This document shows positions 8,181 to 62,097 of a DNA stretch of 64,000 bases, piece after piece. The notes under the pieces are model-generated. The model was not told the origin of the DNA. It saw nothing but the letters and a program-made list of their open reading frames with translations, and searched no databases. Source of the DNA: Neocallimastix lanati (nom. inval.) (taxonomy: Eukaryota; Neocallimastigomycota; Neocallimastigomycetes; Neocallimastigales; Neocallimastigaceae); NCBI GenBank assembly GCA_016946835.1, contig JACVTC010000031.1, positions 340,501 to 404,500 on the forward strand, written 5' to 3'. Each line of letters begins with the position of its first letter. Within the stretch, counting starts at the first letter, position 1. Position numbers and translations under genes: made by a program.

Positions 8181-9590
8181 TTAAGATGAGACTTCGTCCC
8201 CTGAAGTCTGATTATACCAAGTATAATAATGAACAAGATTTTTCTGGTGTACATTTCTGTCAGCTATTTCACCAGTGTAAATATCACAAATACAAGCGGT
8301 ATTATAATTCATTTGAACAATTCTAAAAGGACCAGTGTAAAAGGGGTCTAACTTTCTTCTTGAGAAATTTCTAACTAAAACTAAGTCCCCTGGTTCAAAA
8401 ACAGTATTCATAGATTTTTGTTGTTTTCTTCTATTTTCCCATAATTTATTAGCATTATCAATATTAGCAGTGGCTTCCATAATCCATTTATGATGAGTTG
8501 TAAATTTTCTAATTAAATATTCATCAAAGGTTTCATTTATATTTCTATCATTATATGCAATTGTTAATTCGAATGGTTGTAGATCAGTTCTACCATATAA
8601 GAGTTCAAAACTAGAAAATTTTGTAACTTCACTTTTGCAAGTTCTTAAGGCCCATAAAAAGCAACTGGAAGAATTTCATCCCAATTCTTTTCTGTTCCTC
8701 CAAGTAGTCTAATATATTTTATAATTTCTCTATTTCTATTTTCAACTTGGCCATTACTTTCAGGATGGTAAGTACTGATGTAATGAACATAAACATTATA
8801 TAAATCTAAAAATCCTTTTGTAGCATTGGAAGTAAATTGCGGACCATTATCAGTGATTAAAATTTCAGGAATGCCATGTCGAGAAAATACATTAGTAAGA
8901 AACTTAATAACGTCTTTAGATTCAATTGTAGGAAATGGTTCGGCTTCTACCCATTTTGTAAAATAATCAACTAAAACAATTATGTATTTATTATTTGATT
9001 TAGTGATAGGTAAGGGTCCTATAATGTCTAAACCAACTCGAGTAAAGGGTAAACCTGGTTTAGTAGCAAATGATTCAGTACCTCTATTAATTGGTTGTGG
9101 TCTGTTCATTTGACAATCATGGCAAGTTTTAATAAGTAATTCTACATCTTTGGACATGTTTTCCCAATAATATTTCCTTTTAAGTCTATCGTATGTTTTA
9201 TAATAGCCTTCATGTCCAACACTATGGGCAGCTAATAATAGTTCTATTTTCTCTTCTTTGTTTTCGACAAATTTACGAATATTTTCTCCGTCTTTAAAAT
9301 ATTTAATATTATCTATAATAATTATTTTCTTTTTCAAATATTCTTTAATAGCAATACTATTATTTAATTCTTCAACTTCAGTATTATTACTGTCATCATT
9401 AGTTGTAACAAAAATTATTTCATTTTCATTAAAATTATTTTCAATGGAATCTTTATTTAAAATATAATAATTTTCCAAATTATTATTATCTTTACTTTTA
9501 TTTAAATTAATATTATTTTCATTATAGTTATCATTAATTTTAGAATTACATATATTAAGATTTTTATTATAAGAATTTTCAGAAATATTA
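8181..9590 (-). pseudogene. Element 1 integrase region, frame-broken
   Basis: The main open piece is 9478-8645 (277 codons). It has a His/Cys zinc-binding domain ending CHDC, then the DDE core: LDIIGP, ITDNGPQF and the Glu of SNGQVEN. This is retroviral-type integrase that joins element cDNA to host DNA. The frame breaks at about 8652, where a T run within GCTTTTTATGG is 2 nt too long. Downstream the same protein continues to 8181, with a basic C-terminal domain (open from 8480) containing GPFRIVQ. Upstream, the frame is open back to about 9645, where it is out of register with the RT frame. No chromodomain follows. Catalytic residues are intact, so decay is recent. Confidence 0.85.
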
Positions 9591-9591
9591 A

Positions 9592-9784
9592 TTAAAGGAT
9601 TTTTATCAAAATTATTTTCATAAAAATTTTTAATACAATTTTATTAATATTGTTATAATTAAGTTTTTCAGAAAAATTTTTAATATTATTTTGATTAATG
9701 TTACAAAATTCCTTTGAAAATTTTTTAATATCGTTACTACTATTATTACAATTATTATCAAAATTTTCTAAATAAAAATTTTTG

Positions 9785-9848
<64 letters not shown>

Positions 9849-12800
9849 ATTTTTCATAATAACTATTAACACTGGAATTATTATTTAAATTTTTAAAAAT
9901 ATAATTATTATTATTATTATTATTATTATTTAATTTATTTAAAGAATTAATTATATTATTATCTAAATTATTTTTATTAAAATTAACGTAATTATTTTCT
10001 TCAGAAATATTATTTAAAGGATAATCATTTTTATTTGTATTATTCATTCTATTTATATTTTCAATAGAATCGTAATTAATATTTTCATTATTATTCAAAT
10101 GAATAAACAAAGTATTATTTTTAATTTCTTTATTAATATTTTTAGAGTCAGGAATTAATCGAGAAAGTGCATCAGCAATAACATTTTTCTTTCCTTGTTC
10201 ATATTTAACTACAATTTTTAACAGACTAAAAGTTATAACCCATCTAGCTTGACGAGCATTATTTGGTTCTTTATTATTAAATAAGCCTATTAAAGGTTTA
10301 TGATCAGTATATAAAATAGTATCATATTTATTACCACTAAAATATGGTTTAAATTTTAAACAATAATAATAAGCAGCTGTGCCTTCTAAATCAGTAATAC
10401 TATAATTTATTTCAGTAGGTTTTAAAGATCTACTAATGTATTGAATTGGATGTTCGATGTTATCTTTATCTTTCTGCATTAATACACCACCTATTCCATC
10501 TAATGAAGCATCCGTTCTAATTAAAAATTGTTTATCATAATCTGGATATTTAAGAATAGGAGCTTCAATAAGTTTTTCCTTAAGAATTTTAAATCTTTCT
10601 TCAGTTATATCATCCCAGATATATTTTATATTTTTCTTTAATAGTTTAAATAATGGTTGAGCAATTATAGCAAAATCTTTAATAAATTTTCTATAATATC
10701 CAATTGCACCTAAGAAAGATCTTAATTGAGTAATATTTTTAGGTGATTCCCATTTGGATATTACATCTACCTTTTTGGGTACTGGCTTTATACCTTCTGT
10801 GGATAAAATATGGCCTAATACTTCAACTTCTTGTTTAATAAAATGGCATTTTGATAAATTAGCCTTTAGACCATTTTCTTTAATAATATCAAAAACTTTT
10901 TGCAGATCCAATATGTGTTGTTCCAAGGTATCAGAAAATATTACTAAATCATCCATATAAATGAACATACATTTACCAATTAAAGGCAAGAATATTCTGT
11001 TTATTTCACGTTGGAAAGTTGCAGGAGCATTACAAAGTCCGAATGGCATAACTTTGTAATTATAATTTCCAAACATTGTTGTAAAACAAGTTTTATCTCT
11101 GTCTTCTTTTTCCATAGGAATCTGATGGAAACCAGAAAATAAGTCAAGCGTGGTTAAGTACTTAACTTTATTGCCTATAGAAAATAATATTTCTTCTATA
11201 TAAGGTAAAGGATATGCGTCTTTAATAGTAATATCATTTAATTTTCTATAATCCACTACCATTCTCCATTTACCATTCTTTTTAGGAACGAGAATAACTG
11301 GGAACGACCATGATGATTTTGAAGGTTCTATCAATCCATTTCTTAATAATTTACTTATTTCTTTTCTTAGTATACTCATTTGCTTCTTATTTGCTACTCG
11401 ATACATTCTTTGTTTAATTGGCATTCGACCACTTATGATTTTTATTTTATGACTTAGTAATTTCGATTTACCTAAATCATCTGTATCAAGTGCCAATACA
11501 TTTATATTATTTAATAATAAAAACTTTAGTTTGTTTCTAATTTTTGTTGGTGCTTTCGCCGCAATTTCATGAATAGTTATTTCCTTTACACTTTTAAAAT
11601 TCTTAACAGTATTTTCAATAGAAATATCAATATTTTTGATTACACTGTTTTCATAATTCTTTTTATCATTAATTTCATTTATTTTTGTTAATAAAGAATA
11701 ATTATTTTGTAAAGAATTTTTATTATCTTTTTTGTTACCACTTATAACGAAATCATTAATATCTTTAACATGATGATTAATTTCGAAAGAATTTTTATTA
11801 TTAACATCTTCATTAAAAATTGTGGAAAAATTTTTATCACTAATAGTATTATCAACATCTTTAGAAACTATATTATCATTATTATCATTACAAAAATTTT
11901 CAGAAGGTTTATCAGTATTAATATTATTTTTATTAAGGTTTTCAGAAAGATTATTAATATTATTTTTATTAAGGTTTTCAGAAAGATTATTAATATTAAT
12001 TTTATTAAAAATTTCAGAAAAATTATTAATATTATTTTTATTTCCAAAAATATTATAAGGATTATTAGTATTATTAATGCTATTTAAGTTTTCATAAATA
12101 TTATTAATATTATCTAAATCTTTAGAAATATTATCAGTATTATTAACATCATATAAATTTTTAGAGAAATTATTAATATTATTTTTATTATTAAAATTTT
12201 CAGAAGAACAATTTTTATTATTAATACTAATCGAATTATTGATATTATTTTTATTAATAGGTTTTTCAAAAATATTATTAATTCTATTATTAAAAATTTT
12301 ATTAGTAAAATTTTTATTATTAAAATTTTTATTAGATAGATTTTTACTAGAAAAATTTTTATTAGAAAAATTTTCGATATTATTATTATTATCGATATTA
12401 ATTTCATTTGGATTATCATGATTATTTATAGTATTAAAATTTTTGTTAGTATTATTATTATTAATATCTTTATTAGAAGAACAATTATTATTAGAAATTT
12501 TAGAAATTTTATCATTATTAATTTTACATCCAAATACATTCTTTAAATAATTATCATTATTATTTATATTGCAAAAATTATTTCCATCTTTATCATTATG
12601 ATTTCCAAAGGAATTATCAATATCATTATTATCATTATTTTCTTCATATAAAATTTGAATATATTTATCTTCGGTGGTTAATAAATAATCAACTAGCACA
12701 TCTTTATTCAATTCTTCTTCGAATTCATCTTTAATATCATCTTCTTCATCTTCTATTTCCGTCACACTTTCAAAACTTCCTATCTTTCGTATCTCATCTA

Positions 12801-13290
12801 TTTTTTGATACAAGGTGTGATCAGAGAAGTCCATAATAATCTTCATTCTAGCTAGCGCATCCACACCAATTAATACTTGGAAAATATCATCTTTTTCAAC
12901 CAATCTAAAGATTTCCTTAGAAGTAATATTTCCAATTGTTATTTCTATTTCATATAATTTTGAGATGAGCGTGGTATTAGTACAAGCTTGATATAAAGTT
13001 TCTTTAATAGCAGAAATTGGTTTAAATGGAATTTTATTATTTATTATGAAGGTTTTGGTGATCATATTAATAGAAGAACAGGAATCTAAATATACTGTAG
13101 TTTCTACGTTTTCTACCTTACATTTTGTTTTTACAATCTTATCTTTCTTAATTGTTGATAAGATTGTTTCTTCATCTTCTATAATTGTTGTAAACTTTAA
13201 GGCTTTAGATAATTCAGTTCTCAATTTAGGATTGATATTGAGCAACTGTCCGATGGTAATATTAGCGAACTTATTTCCAATATCGTCCAC
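9592..13290 (-). CDS. Element 1 pol: protease, reverse transcriptase, RNase H
   Basis: This open frame of 1,232 codons lies in the -1 frame relative to gag. Numbering is from 13290, which is a GTG, not a true start. A retropepsin-like segment lies at residues about 57-150, with LDSC (D69) where the family usually has D-S/T-G. An Asn-rich linker runs from about 200 to 565. Reverse transcriptase (about 630-850) has YMDD at 778-781. RNase H (about 905-1060) has the TDAS and DALSRL motifs. A second Asn-rich stretch reaches the end. The protein would cut the polyprotein and copy the element RNA into DNA. The Asn-rich insertions resemble those of host proteins. The frame ends at 9592, out of register with integrase. 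The frame extends upstream through one TAG at 13345. Confidence 0.9.
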
Positions 13291-21801: not shown

Positions 21802-22989
21802 TTAATTACTATATGAGATCGAGACTGGTTTCCTATTATTATTAATGTATTTAATAAAAATATTTTGGTTTCTTGGATTATCTTCAACTTCAGAAGAAGA
21901 TACCCAATTATAGGAGGAACGATATTTATAACGGATTTTATATTCGTATTGTTTCTTCTTATAGTTAGTTCTAAAACCCGCAATTTCAATAATATCCTTA
22001 ATAGACTCAGGATCTTTATATCGTTTTCTAAACTTTTCAGGCACTGGTGTGAATGGTTCGAGTTCAGAGACGTGGAAAACATTATGATGCTTAGGAAAGG
22101 GTGAATTTTTAAGTTCAATTTCATAATTATTATTATGTAAAACATTGGTTACTTTGTATGGACCAAATTTGCATGGAGCTAGTTTTGAGCTTGATTCTAT
22201 ATTTAACGAAGGGGGAGCTTGAATCCACACCAAATCGTCAATGTTGTAAGAAGGAGCGGTAATTCTTTTTCTATCAGCAGAACGTTTATATAGCTCTTGG
22301 GATCGGAGAAGAACTTCTTTAACATGATTAAAACTTTCATAAACTTTTTGAACCATTTTATGATTAATGTTACAAGTAGGGAGTAGTGTATATTCATCCA
22401 TGTAAGGATGAAATCCATAGTTGATAAAAAAGGGAGTTTCGTTAGTGGAAGGGTGAATTGAGTTGTTATAAGCAAATTCAGCAAGTGGAAGAAAATCAAC
22501 CCAATCATCATGATAGAAAGATCTTGAGAAACAGCGAAGGTATTGTTCGATGAAAGAATTGCATCGTTCAACTTGACCTACGGTTTCATGGTGGTCAGTA
22601 GTAGCTATTTTCGATTTAATATTTAATAAGAATAGAAATTCTTGCCAAAGTTCACTCGTAAACTGTGAACCTCTATCCGTAATAATATCATAGGGTAGAC
22701 CATGGAGCTTATAGATATTATTGATAAAAGCTTTGGCTGTTTGTACGGAATTTGGAATATCTTTGAAGGGAATAAGGTGTATCATTTTTGAAAATCTATC
22801 AACTACAACCATAATCACCGCATTACCTTTGGATGGTGGAAGACCACATAAGAAATCAATTTCGATTGATTTCCAAGGTCTTTCTGGAACGTCAAGCGGT
22901 TGAAGTAACCCAAATTTTCGGTGCCTAGATTTTTTGTTTCTCATACATGTTTCACACGACTTTACAAAATTCTTAACATCATCTTCCAT
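21802..22989 (-). CDS. Element 2 integrase with chromodomain
   Basis: 395 codons from the first Met after the in-frame TAG. It keeps the CETC half of the zinc-binding domain (C12, C15) and the catalytic triad D45, D105 and E141, with 35 residues between the last two as in DDE integrases. A GPYKVTNVL-type C-terminal domain follows, and then a chromodomain-like segment (about 334-382) with YEYKIRYKY and a Trp in NWVSSSEVE. Chromodomains of such elements bind modified histone tails and direct insertion to silent chromatin. In an intact copy this would be the end of Pol. Here it is cut off from RT by the TAG at 23001-22999, nine bases before this Met. Confidence 0.9.
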   Translation of the reverse strand: MEDDVKNFVKSCETCMRNKKSRHRKFGLLQPLDVPERPWKSIEIDFLCGLPPSKGNAVIMVVVDRFSKMIHLIPFKDIPNSVQTAKAFINNIYKLHGLPYDIITDRGSQFTSELWQEFLFLLNIKSKIATTDHHETVGQVERCNSFIEQYLRCFSRSFYHDDWVDFLPLAEFAYNNSIHPSTNETPFFINYGFHPYMDEYTLLPTCNINHKMVQKVYESFNHVKEVLLRSQELYKRSADRKRITAPSYNIDDLVWIQAPPSLNIESSSKLAPCKFGPYKVTNVLHNNNYEIELKNSPFPKHHNVFHVSELEPFTPVPEKFRKRYKDPESIKDIIEIAGFRTNYKKKQYEYKIRYKYRSSYNWVSSSEVEDNPRNQNIFIKYINNNRKPVSISYSN

Positions 22990-22998
22990 CTTGGGCCA

Positions 22999-25371
22999 CT
23001 AAAAGTTTCTTGAGATCAACTCCAAAGTTCTTTTGACACCAAAATGACCCGCAGCAGGTTTCTCATGATAACGAGTTAAAATATCTAAACGAAGTTGATC
23101 TGGTATGTAAATAAGATTGTTGTATAATATTAAATCATTTTCTAATTTAAACTTATTCATTTTGCGAAATGGTTTATAAGGGAAACCTTGAGAGACATTA
23201 TTTTCAGAAAAATATATACGAAGATCCTCAGCAACCTTATCATTCTTTAAGTTTATTTTAATATTATTGAGAAGATCGTTAGTTATACTAATTAAACATG
23301 GGATTTTACCAATATTCTTACTGTCTAAGATAAACTCAGGTTTATCCTCTATATCTTCCTTTTGGTAGTCTGGTCTTCTGGATAACGAATCGGGTTTGCC
23401 ATTCTTTTTACCTTGGCGATAGATAAGTTCAAAGTCGTATTCTTGGAAGAATAGATGCCAACGATGTTGACGTTGATTACCTATCTTCCCTCCAAGGGTA
23501 TATAGAAGATTTCTATGGTCAGTAAAAACTTTAATCTTGAATTTAGCACCTAACAAAAGGTGACGCCATGATGAGAAAGCTTCTTTAATTGATAAAAGTT
23601 CCTTATCGGTAATCGAATAGTTTATTTCGGCATTGTTAAGACTACGAGAAAAATAAGCAATAGGATGAAGCTTATTATCATTATCATACTGGGAAAGAAC
23701 TGCTCCAATAGCAAAGTTACTAGCATCGCACTCAACAATAAAAGGTTTTGTTAAGTCAGGATGCATGAGGAGAGGGGAAGAAGTTAAACGTTTTTTGAGA
23801 ATTGAGAAGGAGGTATCACAATCTTTAGACCAAACAAACTTCCTTCCTTTCTTGGTTAAAGCATGCAAAGGTTTAGCAATAGCAGCAAAATTCCTTACGA
23901 ATCTTCTATAGTAATTGCAAAGACCAAGAAACCTTTGAACCTCTTTTACGTTTTTTGGAATGGGCCATTCTTTGATTGATTTGATCTTCTTTGGATCAGT
24001 GGACACACCAGAACCAGAAATGATATGTCCAAGGAATTCGACTTCCTCTTTATCGAATTCACATTTCGAAAGTTTAGCATATAAATTATTGTCAATAAGC
24101 TTTTTGAGAACCTCACGTACAGTTTGATGATGATCATCTAATGAATTAGAATAAATTAGAATGTCATCTAGGTAGAGTATTACCGATTTCTCTAAGAATG
24201 GACGAAGGACAGAGTTAATAAAAGATTGGAAGATTGCAGGTGCATTTTTAAGACCAAATGGCATTACTAAATATTCGTAATGTCCATACTTAGTACGGAA
24301 AGCTGTTTTATATTCATCGCCTTCCTTTATACGAATTAAATTATATGCGGAGCGCAAGTCCAATTTAGTAAAGTACTTGGCTCCTTTGACTCGTTCAATA
24401 ATGTCGTTGATGAGCGGTAAAGGATAGGAATTTCTAATAGTAACCGCATTTAAACGTTTGTAGTCAACGCAGAGTCGGAGAGAACCATCACTCTTTTTTT
24501 GAAAGAGAACAGGATAGCCGGCTGGGGAGTGAGATTCTCTAATAAATCCTTTCTTTTCGTTTTCCTTTATGTAATCTTTTAAAACTTCTGATTCTTCCAA
24601 TGTAAGCGGGTAGATTGGTCCATAATGTAAAGTAGCACCTGGTTGAAGATTGATCTCACAGTCCGATAAACGATGGGGAGGAAGCTTATCTGCTTCCTTT
24701 TTACTGAAGACTATTGCAAGGTCTTTATACTGTTCAGGAATACGCTCAATATCAGGTTCTTCAGAATCCTCTGATACCTTATTTGAAAGAAAAGAATAGA
24801 TTAAAAAGTTGTAATTATAGGGTAATCCGTCATAAAAATTAATTGAATTCGCATTTTGTTTAAAATTCTTTATAATTCTTGATTTAAATTTTGAGATTTT
24901 AAAAGTAGAGTAAAGATAATGATTATCATAACTAAAATGTATTTTATAGTTTTTCATAAATTGATTTCCAAGGAGTAAATCCACTGGAATATGTTTTGAC
25001 ACAAGGAATTTTTCTTTAAATTTGATTAAATGAAACGTATTGTTAATTTTGATTTTTAGTTGAAAATTTAAAGACACAAATTCATTAATGGAATCTGTAT
25101 CACCACTAATACCTTTTATATATATTTTATTATTAAGTTTTTGAGGTACAAGATTTAACCGAGAGATTAAATTGCTAGAAATAAAATTGCAGTAAGAACC
25201 ACAATCTAACATTGATTTGGTTTGTAATTTAATGTTTTTGTTCCTTTTGTTTATTGTTGGGATAAATGATTTAAACAAAAAGAAAGAATTAGGAAGAGGA
25301 GGGTTTAAAGTTGGATAATTATATTGAATAGTTTTAATCGGAGAGGACTTCTTGGGAAGTCCATTATCTAG
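22999..25371 (-). CDS. Element 2 pol: protease, reverse transcriptase, RNase H
   Basis: Entry is by -1 frameshift at 25371. The frame is open from there, and numbering below counts from codon 25278. The retropepsin motif is LDCG (D25, with Cys where Ser or Thr is usual). Reverse transcriptase (about 250-430) has VDYKRLN, MPFGLKNAP and YLDD at 369-372. RNase H (about 510-635) has D518 in ECDAS, E560 in TDKELL and D587 in TDH. The zinc-binding His pair of integrase follows near the end (HEKPAAGHFG). The frame stops at TAG where related proteins have an aromatic residue before Trp-Pro. The frame is otherwise intact. Confidence 0.92.
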   Translation of the reverse strand, partial: LDNGLPKKSSPIKTIQYNYPTLNPPLPNSFFLFKSFIPTINKRNKNIKLQTKSMLDCGSYCNFISSNLISRLNLVPQKLNNKIYIKGISGDTDSINEFVSLNFQLKIKINNTFHLIKFKEKFLVSKHIPVDLLLGNQFMKNYKIHFSYDNHYLYSTFKISKFKSRIIKNFKQNANSINFYDGLPYNYNFLIYSFLSNKVSEDSEEPDIERIPEQYKDLAIVFSKKEADKLPPHRLSDCEINLQPGATLHYGPIYPLTLEESEVLKDYIKENEKKGFIRESHSPAGYPVLFQKKSDGSLRLCVDYKRLNAVTIRNSYPLPLINDIIERVKGAKYFTKLDLRSAYNLIRIKEGDEYKTAFRTKYGHYEYLVMPFGLKNAPAIFQSFINSVLRPFLEKSVILYLDDILIYSNSLDDHHQTVREVLKKLIDNNLYAKLSKCEFDKEEVEFLGHIISGSGVSTDPKKIKSIKEWPIPKNVKEVQRFLGLCNYYRRFVRNFAAIAKPLHALTKKGRKFVWSKDCDTSFSILKKRLTSSPLLMHPDLTKPFIVECDASNFAIGAVLSQYDNDNKLHPIAYFSRSLNNAEINYSITDKELLSIKEAFSSWRHLLLGAKFKIKVFTDHRNLLYTLGGKIGNQRQHRWHLFFQEYDFELIYRQGKKNGKPDSLSRRPDYQKEDIEDKPEFILDSKNIGKIPCLISITNDLLNNIKINLKNDKVAEDLRIYFSENNVSQGFPYKPFRKMNKFKLENDLILYNNLIYIPDQLRLDILTRYHEKPAAGHFGVKRTLELISRNF

Positions 25372-25377
25372 TTTTTT
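25345..25377 (-). promoter_or_regulatory. -1 ribosomal frameshift signal between gag and pol (element 2)
   Basis: On the minus strand the heptamer A AAA AAC (25377-25371) is in the gag frame and directly followed by the gag stop TAG. After an 8-nt spacer comes a perfect 6-bp stem GGACTT/AAGTCC (25362-25357 with 25350-25345) and a 6-nt loop. The pol frame is -1 and open from this point. Confidence 0.87.
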
Positions 25378-26591
25378 GAGTTAATTTTTTGGACTTCGGT
25401 AACATAATTTTCTCGGTTGTTGTAACTGGAATTAACCTTAGATTTATTATTATGGAAGTTATTATTTTTACTATGATTGTAATAATTGTTATTCTTCTTA
25501 TTCTTGTTTTCACTATTGGGATAAGAATGAGAGTTCTTTCTCTTATAATTTTTATTGCTGGTTAATTGATTTATCTTTAATTTAGTTTCTTGAGAAGATT
25601 CAAACAATATGCACTTTGTTGTAATTTCTTCTATTTTCTCTGGAAACTTCTCCATTTTATTAATTTCTTCTTTAAATTTTGGATGAAGACCATTATAGAA
25701 AAATAATACTAATGGTTCTTCAGGCCAACCAAGATCAGCTGTTAGTTTACGGAAAGAATCGATATAGTCCTTAATATTACCATGAGAATGTTTAAGATTT
25801 ATTAAATTAATTTTCTTTAACTTTTTGCTGACAACATCAGGAAAAGCTTCTTTTAATTCATTAAGAAGAGCCTCTAGGGAAGCAGGAGGACTACTGGAAT
25901 ATTTTGTTTGGTACCAACTTCTAGCAGCTTCTCTTAATCTTGATTGCACAAAGTTGATTTTCGAATCTTCAGGCCAAGACTTACATGGATAGGTTTTAAA
26001 TGTGTCCCCACACAGTTGACAGAAAAGTTCGGTTTCAGAAATATCACCTGAAAACAAACCTGGATCGGGAACTTGAGGAATATTAATAGGGTAAGCAGAT
26101 TGCATGATAACATCATGATCATTGTCATATCTTGTAGTAGTTGAGATATTATCATCGAAAACAGAATGGAGGTTTACCGTAGGATTTCCAGATGTCAACG
26201 GTATCGACGAGGTAGCACCAGAAGAAGTATTTTCTACTTGAGTTTTATTACATAATTCATGCTTAAAATAGAGGGTAGCCTTTTTCAAAGATTCTAAAGA
26301 GGCCAATATTTCATTATTCATTTTATCATAAGCTCCGAATTGTTTCATTACCTCTTGATGGTAATTTTGTAAGTCTTCTTTGGAAACGAAGTTTTCATTC
26401 ACCCCAGAAACTATACTATTACAAGCTTGTGAGGTATCATTTCTTAACTGTTGAACACCTTCTGCTAAGGTGGTACAAGCTTGGGTGGCTTCGGATCGCA
26501 ATTGTTGTACTGAGTCTTCTTTATTCATATCCATTTCTTCATCCGATCTAGCTGAATACATTCCCGAGCGTCTTAGGCCAATTTTAGGCAT
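25368..26591 (-). CDS. Element 2 Gag
   Basis: 407 codons. A coiled-coil-prone N-terminal region (about 20-115) is followed by a retrotransposon Gag capsid domain (about 175-345), recognisable from ARSWYQ, LNELKEAFPD and LFFYNGLHPKFKEEI. The tail is Asn/Lys/Tyr-rich and basic. I find no CCHC knuckle, so the basic tail may bind RNA instead. The start Met lies only 24 nt after the primer site. The stop codon is part of the frameshift signal. Confidence 0.87.
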   Translation of the reverse strand: MPKIGLRRSGMYSARSDEEMDMNKEDSVQQLRSEATQACTTLAEGVQQLRNDTSQACNSIVSGVNENFVSKEDLQNYHQEVMKQFGAYDKMNNEILASLESLKKATLYFKHELCNKTQVENTSSGATSSIPLTSGNPTVNLHSVFDDNISTTTRYDNDHDVIMQSAYPINIPQVPDPGLFSGDISETELFCQLCGDTFKTYPCKSWPEDSKINFVQSRLREAARSWYQTKYSSSPPASLEALLNELKEAFPDVVSKKLKKINLINLKHSHGNIKDYIDSFRKLTADLGWPEEPLVLFFYNGLHPKFKEEINKMEKFPEKIEEITTKCILFESSQETKLKINQLTSNKNYKRKNSHSYPNSENKNKKNNNYYNHSKNNNFHNNKSKVNSSYNNRENYVTEVQKINSKN

Positions 26592-30568: not shown

Positions 30569-33475
30569 TTATTTCTCATCAATATAAACAGAAGAGGTAG
30601 TTATATCATCTCCTGTCCAAAGATAGAGTGCTAAAAGTGTTTCTGATTCTGTTCTTACGGAATGGACATGATCAGATGGATGAAGTAAGACATCTCCTGG
30701 TTTTCGAGTGGTAGTCTTACCATCCAAAGTCCAATATGAAGTTCCACTTAATATTAAATAGGTTTCAAGGGCTGGATGATAATGTGATGGATAAGTAGTA
30801 TGAGGGCCTATGACAAAGAATCCCAAACCATATTTATTAGAAATGATAGGTGCTTTGGGTCCGATTAATTCCGCCCAACCAATATGATGTTCAAGATCCT
30901 TTTTAGCAGTATAGCCGTATTCCCATGGTAAATAGTCAAAAACTTTGTAAAGAGCATCTATTAATTCCTGAGTTTCTGGAGATCCACGAGAACTAGCATC
31001 TTCCTTATATTGTAAAATGGCGGATTTAACTGCTTCCTTACTTATTTTTAAGGGTGTAGTAGTGGGTATTCCAACTGAAAGAACTTTGGGAATTTCAGAA
31101 GATTCATTTTCATGATCTTTTTTTGAGAGATATTTTTTTGTTTTTTCTAGAAGGTCTTGAGTTGCACTTATAGGAGTTTTATTATTATTACCGATAACTG
31201 TAGATTTTAATACTACACCAGTATTACCAATAGTGACACCAGTTTTCCAGAGAGCATAGGCTTGGGTGGCATTCAAACGTAAATTTTCTAAGGATTTTTC
31301 AATTTCATGAGCTCGTTTTCCTGATTCTTCAAAGCTTACCCCAGCAAAAGCCCTTTCAAGATCATCGGCTCTGTAGAAAATAAATGGACCATAACCGCGT
31401 TCTTCATACTTAGCATAACCGCCAATGACATCTTCTTCTAAAATTTGAACTTTCCAAATGTAAGTCAAGACTTCGGAATGAACACCAGCTTCTTTTCCTA
31501 AATTGATAATAGTATCTAGAGGTACACGTCCACCAATGAGTGATAAGACCGCACCATTTTCTTCCAAAAATTCTGGAGCTTGTTGTAGAGCTAAATAGTG
31601 TAAATCAAGTAAGGCATTATGGACATCTTCTGGGATGCTTTCTTTACGTTGTTCATAGTACTGAGCACTGTTATGACTTTGTTGAATTTCTTTATCTTCA
31701 GCAAGTGGGACATTAGGAAGATTTTCGTAGATGATATCAAATCGTGGATTTTCAGCAGGATTTTCCTTTCTTAATGGCTCAAAAAGATCACCTACATAAG
31801 CCTTAATTTCTTTCTCGCCAGGTTTCAAGAGATTATTACGAATATTTTTTTCAGCAGCTTTAACTACACCTTCTTGAAGATCACTAAAGGCAAGTTTTTT
31901 GGCACCAAATATTTCTGCACCTGATAAAACATCCAATCCAGTTCCGGTACCAAGCGAAAAGAATGATTTTACTTGTCCTGGGTTTTCCCTTTCTATTTTC
32001 TGGAAAGTAGGTATTCCTACAAAAGCAAGCCAATCTCCTGATATATTTTCATCATCAATCTCAGGAGGAAAAGCATTTTCTACAACAGAAATTGATAATT
32101 GCTCTTTAGTATGAGTGGACTCTTTACCGTTGAGATTAAAATATTTTGAAGCGTCGACTTCTACACGATATCCTTTTTCTTCTTCTTCGAAAGCTTTGGT
32201 GATAGCTTGATCAAAGTCTTCAATTATATCTTCTGGATCTTCAATACCTACCGAAACTCGAATCAAGTCATCTGGAACACCAGCAGCCAATCTTTGTTCC
32301 GGGGATAATTGGGAATGAGTAGAAGAAGCCGGATGAACGATACTGGTACGAGCATCACCAACATGAACCACTAATGCTGCTACTTTAAGACTAGCGGCAA
32401 ACTTCTTAATGGCTTCTCTTCCTCCCTTTAATCCAAAGGTTAAGACACCACTTGCTCCAGGATATTCAAAATATTTAGACACTTTAGAATAATTACGATT
32501 ATCTTCTAATCCTGGATAATTGACCCAGCCTACTTTATCATTCGTCTTGAGGTATTTTGCTAACTTTAAAGCATTATCGCTATGACGAGGCATTCGAAGA
32601 TGCAAAGTTTCCAAACCCAAATTGATAAGGAAAGCATTCATGGGAGCAATGGCTGGTCCGAAATCACGAATATATTGAGATCTAGCTTTGGTGATGAAGG
32701 CCTTTGGACCAAATTTTTCAGTGTAAGAGGTTCGAGCATATTGTTCATCCGGTTCCGTGAAATCTGGGAATTTTCCATTGGCCCAATTATACTTACCACC
32801 ATCTACAATTACACCTCCAAGAGCCACAGCATGACCATCCAAGTATTTTGTAGCAGAATGAATGACTATATCCACACCATGTTTCAATGGTTGGCAAAGA
32901 ATAGGAGTGGCTAGAGAATTATCTACTAGGAAAGGAATATCAAATTCACGAGCCACAGCAGAGAATTTTTCAAAATCAAGAATATCTAAAGAAGGATTTG
33001 CTAAAGTTTCCCCAAGAATTAATTTGGTGTTTGGTTTGACAGCTTTTCTAATTTCCTCAATAGGATCATCAGGGTTGACAAAGGTAGTTTCTACACCCAA
33101 TTTTTTAATTCTAATATTTAATAAAATGTATGTTCCTCCATACACAGCACTAGAAGCTACAATATGATCACCAGCTTGGACAATATTAGAAATTGCTAAA
33201 AATAATGCAGATTGACCAGATGCTGTAGATAAAGCACCAACACCACCTTCTAAGGCAGCTACTTTAGCTTCAAGAGCATTAGCAGTAGGATTTCCAGTTC
33301 TAGAATACTTATTACCAGATTCTTGAAGAGAAAATAAGCGAGCTACTTGATCTAAATCTTCATATTTAAATGTTGTTGATTGACAAATAGGAAGAGTTCT
33401 AGCTTCTCCGACTCCTGGTCTGTAACCTTCCTGTATACATTTAGTTCCAATTCCCCAATATTTACTTTCAGACAT
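30569..33475 (-). CDS. Fusion: O-acetylhomoserine sulfhydrylase, methyltransferase, DMSP-lyase-like cupin
   Basis: One intronless frame of 968 codons has three enzyme modules. (1) Residues 1-430 form a complete Cys/Met-metabolism PLP enzyme of the O-acetylhomoserine sulfhydrylase type. It has YSRTGNPT near 57-64 and the PLP lysine K210 in HSATKYLDGH, and would make homocysteine or methionine from O-acetylhomoserine. (2) Residues about 460-760 are a SAM methyltransferase: motif I SLGTGTGLD (507-515), acidic D532, and YENLPNVP (583-590) in the motif IV place. The segments IGGR (647-650) and WKVQILEED (674-682) and their spacing recall methionine S-methyltransferases (plant MMT, bacterial MmtN). 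(3) Residues about 805-968 are a cupin with H898, H900, E904, Y906 and H936/H938, the metal-site pattern of DddL-type DMSP lyases. No targeting signal is seen. Base composition and lack of introns differ from the neighbours, suggesting bacterial origin. Module 1 is certain, the methyltransferase fold probable, and the substrates of 2 and 3 inferred. Confidence 0.93.
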   Translation of the reverse strand: MSESKYWGIGTKCIQEGYRPGVGEARTLPICQSTTFKYEDLDQVARLFSLQESGNKYSRTGNPTANALEAKVAALEGGVGALSTASGQSALFLAISNIVQAGDHIVASSAVYGGTYILLNIRIKKLGVETTFVNPDDPIEEIRKAVKPNTKLILGETLANPSLDILDFEKFSAVAREFDIPFLVDNSLATPILCQPLKHGVDIVIHSATKYLDGHAVALGGVIVDGGKYNWANGKFPDFTEPDEQYARTSYTEKFGPKAFITKARSQYIRDFGPAIAPMNAFLINLGLETLHLRMPRHSDNALKLAKYLKTNDKVGWVNYPGLEDNRNYSKVSKYFEYPGASGVLTFGLKGGREAIKKFAASLKVAALVVHVGDARTSIVHPASSTHSQLSPEQRLAAGVPDDLIRVSVGIEDPEDIIEDFDQAITKAFEEEEKGYRVEVDASKYFNLNGKESTHTKEQLSISVVENAFPPEIDDENISGDWLAFVGIPTFQKIERENPGQVKSFFSLGTGTGLDVLSGAEIFGAKKLAFSDLQEGVVKAAEKNIRNNLLKPGEKEIKAYVGDLFEPLRKENPAENPRFDIIYENLPNVPLAEDKEIQQSHNSAQYYEQRKESIPEDVHNALLDLHYLALQQAPEFLEENGAVLSLIGGRVPLDTIINLGKEAGVHSEVLTYIWKVQILEEDVIGGYAKYEERGYGPFIFYRADDLERAFAGVSFEESGKRAHEIEKSLENLRLNATQAYALWKTGVTIGNTGVVLKSTVIGNNNKTPISATQDLLEKTKKYLSKKDHENESSEIPKVLSVGIPTTTPLKISKEAVKSAILQYKEDASSRGSPETQELIDALYKVFDYLPWEYGYTAKKDLEHHIGWAELIGPKAPIISNKYGLGFFVIGPHTTYPSHYHPALETYLILSGTSYWTLDGKTTTRKPGDVLLHPSDHVHSVRTESETLLALYLWTGDDITTSSVYIDEK

Positions 33476-56153: not shown

Positions 56154-59100
56154 GTGAATTTTATTAATTTTATGATTACAATAAATTTATATTGTAATGT
56201 CATTATTATTATTATTTTTACTTTTATATTTCATTCATTTAAAAAAAATTATGTAATACAATCTTAATATTAGGAATTAACCTATTCATCAAACAATGCA
56301 AGTGATTCACGTTTTTATCCTTATCAAAAAAGTCAAAACAATAATAATTATTCATATAAAGATAATAGCAATCATTATAAAAAACTTATTTATAATAGAA
56401 ATAAAAATATTAGGGATTATTTGAATGGTACAAATATCTATCTAAATAAATTTTTTATTTTTATTTTTAATTATATATATATATATAAATATATATTTTA
56501 TATTTTTTAATATAGAAATTTAAAAATTATAATAAAGATATTTAAAAAAATTTTTTTTTTTTTTGTTAATTGATTATTATAACTTTATTTATTTATTTAT
56601 TCTAGGTGATAATAATGGTTATAAACTTTTAAAACCGGGAGAAAATGGTACTTATATTGAAAAAGATTCTGGTATGAAATTACGTGATTATTGGATTTTT
56701 TTTGCTAAAACTGTAACATGTTGTATTTGTCCTATTTGTTTAACAAAATGTGGTATGCCATCCAAACCAGTACAAATGGCTTGGCGTGAAAAGGTAAAAA
56801 AAAAAAAAAAAAAAAAGAAAAAAAAAATTATTCAATTTTTTTAATATAATATTAATATTCATATCACAAGATATATTATATTAATAAAAAAATATTACAA
56901 TTGTATTTATATTTATTAATAATAATTTTTTTTTTTTTATTTTTATTTTTTTTTGTAAAAAAAATTTTTTTAATTTCATATATTTAATAATCATATTACT
57001 GATCGATAATTAAATAATATTAAATATTATTATAATGAAAAATATATTAATATATAAAAGATAACAATGGTATTTTTATATTTAGTGATGATGGCATTGA
57101 CAGGTTATTTTACTTTTGGACTTCAAAAAACTTTATGTCATACTTCTGTGAATGGATTTAATCCATGGAGAACAGTTAATAAAGATAATACATTTACAAT
57201 AAATAAATTAAAAGGTCCTATTATTCGAGGCTATACCTATGATTATAATGAATTAAAAGAGTTAGGACTTCAAATCCCAGAAGTTTATAATAATACTAAT
57301 TTAAATTCTATTTATTTACCAAAAAGTGATGGTTATTTTAAAAGTTCTTGTAAAAACTTTGTCAGTAATGTAGATACTTGTCATATATCTGAATCAGAAG
57401 AAACAAATATCCCTTGTCAAGATATAAATATATTAAATCGTGTTAAAATTAAACCAAGTAAGCAACTCTATACATGGGATGATCTTGAACTATTTAAGAA
57501 AAAAAATAATAATGCAGTAAAAGATATAAATCAATGGGATGTGAGACCCAGTAACCAAGAAGATTATAATATAATTATAAATTCTAATTTACTGGTATTT
57601 AATAGTGCTGTTTTAAATATTACCAATATTCTTAATGATTCTCAATATAGTAGTTTAATTACTAATGATTTGAAAGAAACATTAAAATTATTGATTGGAA
57701 AAGATGCTACATTATATATTAATAGATTATTAAAATATAGTACAAATCCTCATATAAAATGTCTTATGGTAAAGTATTAAATAATTAAAATTATAATAAT
57801 AATAAAAAGAAAAATAAAAAAAAATCTTTATAATAAATTTATAATATTAATATATATATTATAATAATTTTATAATAATATTAATAAATATATATATTTT
57901 TTTATAATAATATTATAATATTAATATATATATATATTTTTACAATAAATTTATAATAATATTAATTTATATTTATTTTTATTATATATATGTATATATT
58001 TTTATTTATTAATTTATTTATTTTGTATAAACTATTTGTAATGCAATAAATTAAAAAAAAAAAAATTTTTTTTTCTTTTTATTTGACTTTTAATATAATT
58101 AAATATATTAAAATTATTAATATCGTTATAATGAATTTATAATTAATAATAATTAATAATGAAGGAACAATTTATTGTTGGGTATATTGATAAAAAGACA
58201 GTTGGATGTTTTGTATCTCAAGTATATATTTATACCACATTAGTTTTAATTTTGGGTGTAGTTTTAGTTCGTTTCTTTATGGCTATTATATTTAGATATT
58301 TTATGGCTCCAAGACTTTTCAAAAAGAAAAATTATAATACCAATATGAATGGTCCTAGAACTAATTTTAATACAATTCGTGCCATTAGTTATCACTCAAA
58401 AGATGCTGCTTTAATGAATTCTAGTAATGAAACTTTAATGTGTCTTGATAAATTTATGAGTCAATCTGATTGTGAAGTTTCTAGTAATATTGTTCGTGGT
58501 AGCGAAGATACAATTAATGATGAAAATCAAGAACTATATACAATTTGTTTGGTTACCTGTTATTCTGAAGGTGAACAAGGACTTCGTAATACATTTGAAT
58601 CCTTGGCGTGTACAAAATACAATGATTCAAAAAAATTACTTTTTATTATTGCCGATGGTTTAATTAAAGGAGAAGGTAATGACCTATTAACCTCCGAAAT
58701 TATTTTAAATCTTATCACTGAAAACTATCATCAATATAAACATCCAAACACTAAAATGCCGGAACCTCAAAGTTATGTTTCTATTGCTACAGGAAATAAA
58801 CAAAAGAATATGGCTAGAGTGGTAATATATTTATTTTTAACTCAAATATATATATTATATTTCCTTTTTTTTATTTTTCCTTTTTTTTTTATTTTTATTT
58901 TTCCTTTTTTTTATTTTTCCTTTTTATTTTTATTTTTATTTTTCCTTTTTTTTTATTTTTCCTTTTTTTTTTAATTTTTATTTTTCCTTTTTTTTTTAAT
59001 TTTTATTTTTCCTTTTTTTTTTAATTTTTATTTTTCCTTTTTTTTTTTTTTTTTATAATACATAAATAAAATATAAATTTAAAGTTAATTATATATAATT

Positions 59101-62097
59101 ATTATTTATCTATAAGTTGTATTTAAATTATGTAATATTAATTTTTTTTTCTTTTTGTTTACTATTAATAAAATTTATTATATAAATATGTATATATCAC
59201 ACACACACACATATATATATATATATTCATATATGCATAGCATGCTGGTATGTATACCTCATTAGATCATACTCATAAATGTCCAGTTATAGTAGTGGTT
59301 AAATGTGGAAATCCGGAAGAAGCTAATGATCCAAAACCAGGAAATCGTGGTAAACGTGATTCTCAAGTTATTTTAATGAATTTCTTAAACCGAGTTATTT
59401 TTAATGATCGTATGAGCCCTTTAGATTACGAATTAACTTATCAAATTCAAATGACTGCTGATGTTTTTCCAGATCAATATGATTTAGTACTAATGGTAGA
59501 TGCTGATACCAAGGTGAAACCAGAATCTTTGAATTATATGGTAAAGGCTATGGTTTGTGACGAAAAAATTATGGGATTATGTGGTGAAACTAGAATTTTA
59601 AATAAGACGGCTAGTTTTGTTACTGGAATTCAAGTTTTTGAATATTATATTTCTCATCATCTTAGTAAAGCATTTGAATCAGTTTTCGGTGGTGTCACTT
59701 GTCTTCCAGGATGTTTCTGTATGTACAGAATTAAATCAAGAAAACCAAATACTAATTACGTTGTTCCTATTCTTGCTAATCCAGATATCATTGCTGAATA
59801 TTCTCAAAATGTAGTAGATTCTCTTCATAAAAAGAATTTATTATTATTGGGTGAAGATCGTTTCTTAAGTACTCTTATGTTGAAGACTTTCCCAAAAAGT
59901 AAATGAAATAATTATATAAATATATAAATAAAAATAAAATAAAATAAAATAAAATAAAATATTATATATATATATGTATTATATGTATATGTTTATATTT
60001 TATGTATTATTTGTATATGTATATTCATATATATATTTGTTTTATTTTATTTAATTTAAATTTATTTAATTATTATAAATTAGATATATTTTATAATATA
60101 GCTTTTTTTTTTTTTTTTGTTATGAACCTTAAATATTAATGTATATAATATATATATTATTTATTTTTTTTTATAATAATAATAATTATCTTTTTAGGAA
60201 AAATGATGTTTGTACCTCAAGCTAGATGTAAAACTATTGTACCAGATACATTTAAGGTTTTATTATCTCAAAGAAGAAGATGGATTAATTCTACTATACA
60301 TAATCTTGTAAAATTAGTATTTGTTCATGATTTATGTGGAACATTTTGCTTTTCTATGCAATTTGTAGTCTTCTTTGAATTATGTGGTACAGTAGTTTTG
60401 CCAGCCGCTTTAAGTTTTACTATCTATATTCTTCTTTCCTTTATCTTCACTCATAGTGTTGAAATTTTACCAATCATCTTGCTTTTTGCTATTTTGGGTT
60501 TACCAGGAATATTAATTTTTGTTACCTCTAAGGATTGGCATTACGTTTTTTGGATGTTGATCTATTTAATTGCTTTACCAATTTGGAATTTTATTTTACC
60601 ATTATATGCTGTTTGGCATATGGATGATTTTTCATGGGGGGAAACCCGAAAAATTTCTTCATCAGGTCAGAGTAATGATACAACATCTAATATCGAATTG
60701 GATATCACAAGTGATGAAAATAAGGATAAACGAGTGCCATTCAAACATTGGTCAGAGTATGAATTTGAACGTATTCTTGATTCAAGACCAATACGCTCTT
60801 ATTCCTCTACTCCAAAGGAACGTGGCTCAATAAGAACAATCAGCCTGGGTAACTTATTGTCTTCTCCATTAATGAGAAGAGCTTCCACTTCAACGCTCAA
60901 CTCTCTTAACAGTTCAATGTATTCTACACTTATTTCAAGTTATAATAATAATGGTGGATCCAATTCTAAGATGAATTATCATGACTTATATCAACGTTCT
61001 CAAAATGCCAGTTCTGAATTATTCAGTTTCAAGCGAAATTCTGATATTGATAAATTTGAAGGGATTTTCGGTAAATCGGATATATCAGAAATTAAAAAAT
61101 CGGATATGTCCAAGAGATCTCTTTATCTCGATAAAAACATATTAAATTCATCAGAATACTTGAATGGCAATGAACTATTATTTAATATTGAATTATCTTC
61201 CAAGATGAAAAATCATTACGATAATCCATCCAATACCGGATCTTCCAATAAAAACAGTAATAGTAATAGAAATAGTAAGCATTTCAGCTCTCTTAATACC
61301 TTTACTTTAGATGGTAACTCCAGCAATGGTAATAGTAATCGTAATAGCGTCATTAAGGAGAATTTGAGTAATATCAGTTCTAATGACGCAAGAAATAATT
61401 TAAATAGGAATAGTAGAAAACGTTACTCTGATCTCACATATATTAATAAAAGTGACAAAAGTTCACCTCAAGAACCTGTTCAAAGTTACAAAAATAGTAA
61501 TGGTAATGGTAATGGTAATGGTGATAATAATGATAATAAAAATGATAACGGTGTCAAGAGTCGTTATCATTCTCATCCTAATACTAATATAAATAATAAT
61601 CCTATTATTCCGAACGACTTAATTATGGATAGTATTTCCGATAATAAAGTTACTACTTCAAATAGAAATCGTTATTCTGATGCTATGAATGACTTTATGA
61701 TAAATAGTAAATCTAATAAGAATAGTAATAAGAGTCATAATTCAACTATTTTGAATGGGGATCAGGCTGCTACTACAAGAACTATTAAAAATAATTATAT
61801 TTATAATGATCCAATGGATATAAGCTCTTATATTAAAAATGATAATAATATAAATAAAAATAGGCCAAAAAGTCGCTCAAACAATAATAATAATGATTAT
61901 AATTCATATATTATAAATGACTTAAATATCAATAATAATAATAATAATAATAATAATAGTAATAGTAATAATAGTACTATTAATGATAATAAAAATAATG
62001 ATAATAATAATATTATTAATGCGAATAGCAATAGTATTAATATTTATAATAAAAATAATTCAAATATAATGAATGGATTTAATACTACTACTACTAC

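Follow-up and report, generated by a model that had tools for sequence, protein, structure and literature searches.

Dimethyl sulfide is a gas discussed mostly in connection with the sea, where it arises from dimethylsulfoniopropionate (DMSP). The closest described systems to the one considered here are the cupin DMSP lyases DddQ, DddW and DddK (Pfam PF16867), the methyltransferase MmtN (Roseovarius indicus; 7VVV, 7VVW and 7VVX), the N-terminal half of plant MMT – which carries a C-terminal aminotransferase domain – and the sulfhydrylase MetY (TIGR01326). A fusion is known too: DsyGD, according to the available part of its report (PMC11306096), is a bifunctional enzyme of DMSP synthesis in which an S-methyltransferase is joined to the enzyme of a consecutive step. 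Here we analyse a 64,000-nucleotide stretch of the gut fungus Neocallimastix lanati (contig JACVTC010000031.1, positions 340,501 to 404,500; hereafter the window), in which a single gene unites an O-acetylhomoserine/O-acetylserine sulfhydrylase, an MmtN-like methyltransferase and a DMSP-lyase-like cupin (hereafter the trio). DsyGD is alike in this joining but has two domains and serves synthesis, whereas here there are three, with the lyase-like cupin last. Plant MMT differs in that the C-terminal place is here taken by a cupin, the pyridoxal phosphate (PLP) domain being N-terminal and of another family.

The fusion protein

The gene is one uninterrupted frame of 968 codons that runs from an ATG at 33475 to 30569 on the minus strand; the plus strand over the same interval is full of stops. 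This agrees with a preliminary description made from the letters alone, whose key residues (K210, SLGTGTGLD at 507, H898, H900, E904, Y906, H936 and H938) all stand at the positions given there, and whose three domain identifications hold by Pfam, TIGR01326, fold matches and residues. The frame is not the product of chance, for the sulfhydrylase and cupin domains have strong Pfam matches (Cys_Met_Meta_PP, E 3.5e-122, and DMSP_lyase, E 1.7e-21), and a search with the middle domain yields 343 relatives at E <= 0.001 (identity 49-68% among the 120 listed). Its parts are as follows.

30569..33475, minus strand: whole gene, 968-residue sulfhydrylase / MmtN-like methyltransferase / DMSP-lyase-like cupin fusion (open frame and Pfam; second copy on contig C666; fused proteins P0001-P0003)
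32201..33445, minus strand: O-acetylhomoserine/O-acetylserine sulfhydrylase domain, residues 11-425, PLP lysine K210 (PF01053, TIGR01326, 8sf5)
31181..32152, minus strand: MmtN-like S-methyltransferase domain, residues 442-765; S-adenosylmethionine (SAM) motif at 507-515, YENLPN at 583
31061..31180, minus strand: variable linker, about residues 766-805 (where the copies in this assembly share 29% identity)
30632..31018, minus strand: DMSP-lyase-like (DddQ-type) metal cupin, residues 820-948; Y895, H898, H900, E904, Y906, H938

The N-terminal domain is by family a sulfhydrylase, for which thiol transfer to O-acetylhomoserine or O-acetylserine is predicted. It is covered by Cys_Met_Meta_PP (PF01053), matches the structure 8sf5 at 437.9 bits and, like MetY, lies above the curated cut-off of TIGR01326 (557.2 against 495.1 bits), a model whose scope takes in O-acetylserine as well as O-acetylhomoserine. 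K210 stands in SATKY, which we take to be the S-x-T-K motif of the PLP-binding lysine that MetY shares.

The C-terminal domain is a DMSP-lyase-like cupin by family and by fold, and lyase activity is predicted. PF16867 matches it with 77.1 bits (gathering score 27), and its best fold match is DddQ; aligned through 4la2, Y895, H898, H900, E904, Y906 and H938 correspond to Tyr120, His123, His125, Glu129, Tyr131 and His163 of DddQ, the six residues reported as essential in the available part of PMC4437653. All 32 trio-type cupins in the alignment have each of the six. The preliminary description had set a DMSP lyase against the sugar and storage cupins, and the best matches are indeed DMSP lyases. 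Another candidate relative, 3jzv – presumably the MTXu-5-P methylsulfurylase – was set aside, for it appears only at Foldseek rank 49 (E 9.3e-8). In family, fold and essential residues the domain thus resembles DddQ, DddW and DddK; it differs from them in that its gene lies beside, or is fused to, two other enzymes, and in that its carriers are gut fungi and bacteria that, judged from record names, are mostly non-marine.

The middle domain had been proposed to be an enzyme of the MMT/MmtN kind. By fold this stands, the nine best matches all being MmtN chains; by sequence the best profiles are PrmC/HemK-type methyltransferases, albeit far below their cut-offs, while a single-sequence phmmer comparison with MmtN is not significant (E 1.3) and MmtN is not listed at E <= 0.01 in a profile search of the PDB. 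Alignment to MmtN with hhalign gives a probability of 84.5% (E 7e-6), or 91.2% (E 1.2e-7) in forced global mode. The SAM-binding GxGxG and Asp69 of MmtN are kept in 42 of 42 family members, and the columns of Ser101 and Leu102, which contact the SAM adenine, are gaps in all 42. In this sequence alignment, where local errors are possible, Cys121 (SAM) gives way to Asn in every one of the 42 members; at the position of Glu127, which binds methionine, at least 41 have L (26), I (7), V (5), A (2) or T (1); and Arg132, which also binds methionine, is Arg in 4 of 42. Glu250, a further methionine-binding residue, falls in a poorly aligned region with Glu in 19 of 42. The fold and the SAM-binding GxGxG and Asp69 are thus common to MmtN and the middle domain, but Cys121, Glu127 and Arg132 are not kept, and the domain sits between a sulfhydrylase and a cupin. 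Methionine as its substrate, as first described, finds no support in these columns: most methionine-binding residues of MmtN are not conserved, so that this acceptor is unproven.

Some relatives of the middle domain carry other names, and some stand alone. The methyltransferases of Fibrobacter are labelled 50S ribosomal protein L11 methyltransferase by several sources. The N. lanati assembly has five stand-alone copies, 50-55% identical, on contigs C566, C688 (three within 27 kb) and C741. Stand-alone fungal proteins read SGVIP where the GGRVP segment aligns with MmtN, and because of this substitution they may have a different acceptor.

The fusion recurs. A second copy of 980 residues, 71.8% identical over 957 columns, lies on another contig of the same assembly (C666, 0.99 Mb); between the two copies identity is 65-82% in the domains but 29% in the linker (31 columns within residues 766-800). 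A protein search with residues 440-968, which scored only the 7996 candidates sharing most words, returned four proteins. P0001 is near-identical to the window protein, with at least one residue different; P0002 and P0003 have the domains fused in the same order and are 64% identical over the last two; and P0004 (607 residues) joins the methyltransferase domain to an EamA-type permease, which suggests that its product is exportable. Recurrence speaks against misassembly. Nor does the window copy appear to be decaying: its departures from near-invariant columns (7 of 157 for the PLP domain, 2 of 44 for the methyltransferase and 1 of 20 for the cupin) are all mild. At residue 751, though, it has Asn, against His in 36 of 42 family members.

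The trio in bacteria

We scanned genome contigs with the middle-domain alignment and obtained 81 relatives, of which 80 loci were kept and, after two weak matches (L081 and L082) were dropped, 78 remained. These are a sample defined by two peptide patterns; many loci are close relatives (17 are from Fibrobacterota), so that the counts are not independent, and as some contigs end near the methyltransferase, counts of absence are upper bounds. We call the genes adjacent when, on a single strand, the sulfhydrylase match lies at most 400 bases upstream of the methyltransferase and the cupin match at most 500 bases beyond it.

By this measure a sulfhydrylase, then a methyltransferase, then a cupin follow one another directly at 28 of the 78 loci, in five phyla (Bacillota 2, Fibrobacterota 9, Pseudomonadota 13, Verrucomicrobiota 3, Acidobacteriota 1). 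At eight further loci only the cupin is adjacent, the sulfhydrylase lying 0.6-2.8 kb upstream, which raises the count to 36 if a gap before the methyltransferase is allowed. The cupin adjoins the methyltransferase at 60 loci, is further off at 3 and is absent from the fetched stretch at 15; in two of these 15 a sulfhydrylase is present, adjacent in one and 1 kb away in the other. The domain order of the fungal protein therefore exists elsewhere in two forms, fused in P0002 and P0003 and as separate adjacent genes in bacteria. A search for plasmid-borne copies of the methyltransferase gave no match.

Origin of the fungal gene

Quick trees, with support from the Shimodaira-Hasegawa-like approximate likelihood ratio test only, place the fungal domains among bacterial ones. 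Two genes of Butyrivibrio join the PLP domain (99*), and two from this genus, along with metagenome relatives, join the methyltransferase (100*). Support is weaker, 88 and unstarred, for a group of the fungal cupin with cupins of Butyrivibrio and metagenomes; by path length the bacterial rows nearest to the fungal cupin are from Fibrobacter. A clade of Oxalobacter, Fibrobacter and Butyrivibrio encloses the fungal methyltransferase (43 rows, 100*) and likewise the fungal cupin (31 rows, 99*), and many of its members are, by isolate names, rumen or sheep-gut assemblies; the PLP tree has the Oxalobacter genes outside. That tree took in the PLP enzymes of the sampled loci, canonical MetY enzymes being absent from it, and separates the trio sulfhydrylases from the other PLP enzymes as one supported clade (42 rows, 100*).

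The gene has no intron, and its GC content is 36.7% against 10-14% in the 2-kb flanks. That all three domains trace to similar bacteria and keep the order of the bacterial genes suggests a bacterial operon that was acquired horizontally and then fused into one protein in the fungus, and the nesting together with the lack of introns points to transfer from bacteria to fungus. Middle-domain relatives listed include proteins of Anaeromyces, Piromyces and Neocallimastix. Methyltransferase pieces annotated as partial, from Anaeromyces robustus and Piromyces sp. E2, group with the fused fungal proteins (support 87). One stand-alone copy of the assembly (own_L088) stands beside the Neocallimastix californiae protein P0016 in the methyltransferase tree.

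Neighbouring genes

Four settings recur around the bacterial methyltransferase. Families of neighbours were named from one or two scanned members each and otherwise by phmmer similarity, most NCBIfam matches lying below curated cut-offs, so that these are names of families rather than tested functions. In setting A the trio sometimes has SsuA-like binding proteins, of which the two scanned are below the curated cut-off; at eight Fibrobacter loci metK lies on the opposite strand just before the methyltransferase, in six of them between it and the sulfhydrylase, while in the other two the contig ends before any sulfhydrylase. Setting B is defined by a methionine importer:

metQ, metN and metI directly upstream of the methyltransferase, 10 of 78 loci: L027, L042, L043, L047, L048, L049, L058, L059, L060, L076

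At L050 the same three genes lie downstream. Setting C has LysR, EamA and a PALP enzyme and no cupin (L061, L071, L079 and L080). With the weaker L073, these loci make up the 5 of the 15 cupin-less loci at which a PALP enzyme follows the methyltransferase; at L071 the models that fit it best, each short of its cut-off, are those of cystathionine beta-synthase, cysteate synthase and cysteine synthase, and enzymes of the cystathionine-synthase and cysteine-synthase kind belong to the beta-replacement class. A 1-aminocyclopropane-1-carboxylate deaminase, considered for this partner, is absent among the 25 models listed. In setting D, from Rhodoblastus, the cupin is followed by two PLP enzymes.

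Exporters and accessory sets occur as well. EamA exporters lie near the methyltransferase at six cupin-less loci, and a LysE-type exporter (one checked) downstream of the trio at five Fibrobacter loci. At all four trio loci from Verrucomicrobiota and Acidobacteriota (L032, L040, L055 and L063) the sulfhydrylase is preceded immediately by an MtaA/CmuA-like gene, and no more than 9 kb away are genes for a B12-binding protein and a RACo-type activator (by phmmer, one member of each checked); this corrinoid methyltransferase set is perhaps a dimethyl sulfide demethylase. At L009, L021, L022 and L065 phmmer finds, close to the methyltransferase, genes for an encapsulin-like protein, a class V aminotransferase and a serine acetyltransferase; L065 has no sulfhydrylase upstream. 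Together the three look like what we presume to be a sulfur-storing compartment. At L021 (3715-7228) Pfam and NCBIfam bear out all three, the encapsulin being SrpI-like and of type 2A; sulfate-activation genes (CysD/CysN) were considered there and rejected, for the proteins are the encapsulin and the aminotransferase.

Proposed chemistry

Fusion and gene order make it likely that the three enzymes catalyse consecutive steps. Our data lead us to propose, tentatively and at somewhat less than an even chance, a three-step chain that ends in dimethyl sulfide with S-methylcysteine as the favoured carrier. The PLP domain would couple a thiol (methanethiol or sulfide) with an O-acetylated amino acid, preferably O-acetylserine, to give a thioether, preferably S-methylcysteine; the MmtN-like domain would use SAM to methylate the thioether sulfur, yielding a dimethylsulfonium amino acid; and the metal cupin would remove the proton next to the carboxylate and expel dimethyl sulfide. 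The favoured cupin substrate would be 3-dimethylsulfonio-alanine (2-amino-DMSP), which would give dimethyl sulfide and aminoacrylate, then pyruvate and ammonia.

The choice of carrier turns on the position of the sulfonium. A DMSP-lyase cupin takes the proton alpha to the metal-bound carboxylate and expels the sulfide from the beta position; in S-methylmethionine the sulfonium is gamma, in 3-dimethylsulfonio-alanine (from S-methylcysteine) it is beta. The S-methylcysteine route is favoured because only there is the sulfonium placed as in DMSP. The preliminary description had itself cautioned that S-methylmethionine ill suits beta-elimination by a cupin; the point is chemically sound, and it is this mismatch that led to the S-methylcysteine alternative. 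A serine-type acceptor is suggested by the ability of both TIGR01326 sulfhydrylases and PALP enzymes, the latter present in setting C, to act on such acceptors.

Several lines of evidence are in keeping with the S-methylcysteine chain: adjacency of the trio in five phyla and of cupin to methyltransferase at most loci, the predicted folds and residues of an S-methyltransferase relative and a DMSP lyase, and the grouping of the fungal domains with Butyrivibrio. The PALP enzymes of cupin-less loci, like the scope of TIGR01326, support a three-carbon acceptor; the EamA exporters (also in P0004) and LysE-type exporters support a product that is disposed of; and the corrinoid set supports dimethyl sulfide as currency. 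Other facts weigh against it. Each substrate, the direction and the dimethyl sulfide product are inferred; most methionine-binding residues of MmtN are not kept, so that the methyl acceptor is putative, and by sequence the middle domain is nearer PrmC-type enzymes than MmtN. Fifteen loci with no cupin in reach and three with a distant one indicate that methyltransferase and cupin are separable; metQNI speaks for methionine; and where a serine acetyltransferase lies near a trio it accompanies encapsulin genes and may be part of that set. Direct methylation of methanethiol would be cheaper, and corrinoid genes that return dimethyl sulfide to methanethiol look futile if the trio makes the one from the other.

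The route first envisaged – O-acetylhomoserine and methanethiol to methionine, thence to S-methylmethionine and, through the cupin, dimethyl sulfide – we consider unlikely. The fold match to the methionine-specific MmtN, the importer genes of setting B, the Fibrobacter metK genes and the place of O-acetylhomoserine within TIGR01326 all favour it; yet Glu127 and Arg132 of MmtN are not kept, Glu250 is uncertain, and with the sulfonium gamma to the carboxylate the DddQ-type reaction is, on chemical argument, inapplicable. A cupin that removes the alpha proton would be limited to 1,3-elimination, giving 1-aminocyclopropane-1-carboxylate, or to other chemistry unlike that of DddQ. Of similarly low probability is a cupin that belongs to the lyase-like group but performs another reaction, the protein yielding a non-volatile sulfonium or thioether. 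The cupin-less loci, some with an exporter instead, are consistent with this, and, to judge by its title, a 2018 paper by Lei et al. counts enzymes of unknown function within this cupin family; the invariance of all six DddQ-essential residues argues the other way.

More doubtful is scavenging, with the trio running the other way, in which an imported thioether that cannot be cleaved directly (such as 3-methylthiopropionate) would be activated by methylation, here to DMSP, the cupin would free dimethyl sulfide, another enzyme would demethylate this to methanethiol, and the sulfhydrylase would build methionine. SsuA-like proteins near some trios and the four corrinoid sets fit this scheme, as does Rhodospirillum rubrum, which according to the available part of PMC12552129 reduces dimethyl sulfide to methanethiol, a precursor of methionine. 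However, according to the available part of PMC9135737 MmtN does not take 3-methylthiopropionate, the fungal protein has no part that would demethylate dimethyl sulfide, and both SsuA-like proteins scanned are below cut-off. Finally, an artefact – bacterial contamination, misassembly or the chance joining of three frames – might be read from the high GC content and intron-free frame, but has a negligible chance given contigs of 1.49 Mb (in an assembly of 199 Mb) and 0.99 Mb, two diverged copies, fused proteins from other contigs, and chitin synthase and retrotransposon frames in the same window.

Novelty and significance

Each part is of a known kind or similar to one. Among the literature matches listed, no paper was found to describe the protein with its three parts, the conserved operon of bacteria or the occurrence of the trio in gut fungi. 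The claim that no protein with this domain order had been described stands as far as fusions go, no title or abstract opening among the literature matches listed describing the trio (most subscription journals and bioRxiv preprints lay outside coverage); the order does exist as separate bacterial genes. Within the same coverage no paper was found that joins DMSP lyase, cupin and O-acetylhomoserine sulfhydrylase, or that treats horizontal gene transfer in Neocallimastigomycota with methionine and sulfhydrylase.

A broader statement – that the trio is an unrecognised pathway from S-methylcysteine through a DMSP-like sulfonium to dimethyl sulfide, an operon in at least five phyla and fused in gut fungi – is on the unlikely side when taken whole. 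If true, it would be a route to dimethyl sulfide that needs no DMSP and runs largely outside the sea, in bacteria of gut and soil and in phototrophs (habitats taken from record names), and one that gene surveys could miss given the L11 methyltransferase naming. It would also mean that a eukaryote took up an operon and kept it together through fusion. As the fusion suggests consecutive steps, the substrate is testable with one recombinant protein.

Genomic context

The window also contains, to one side of the fusion gene, two retrotransposon-like clusters on the minus strand (8645-13290 and 21802-26591) with reverse transcriptase, RNase H and integrase frames, the second with gag as well. On the plus strand, at 57067-59906, lie three adjoining frames, two of which match Chitin_synth_2 above cut-off and one CHS4 below it; these are apparently exons of one fungal gene.

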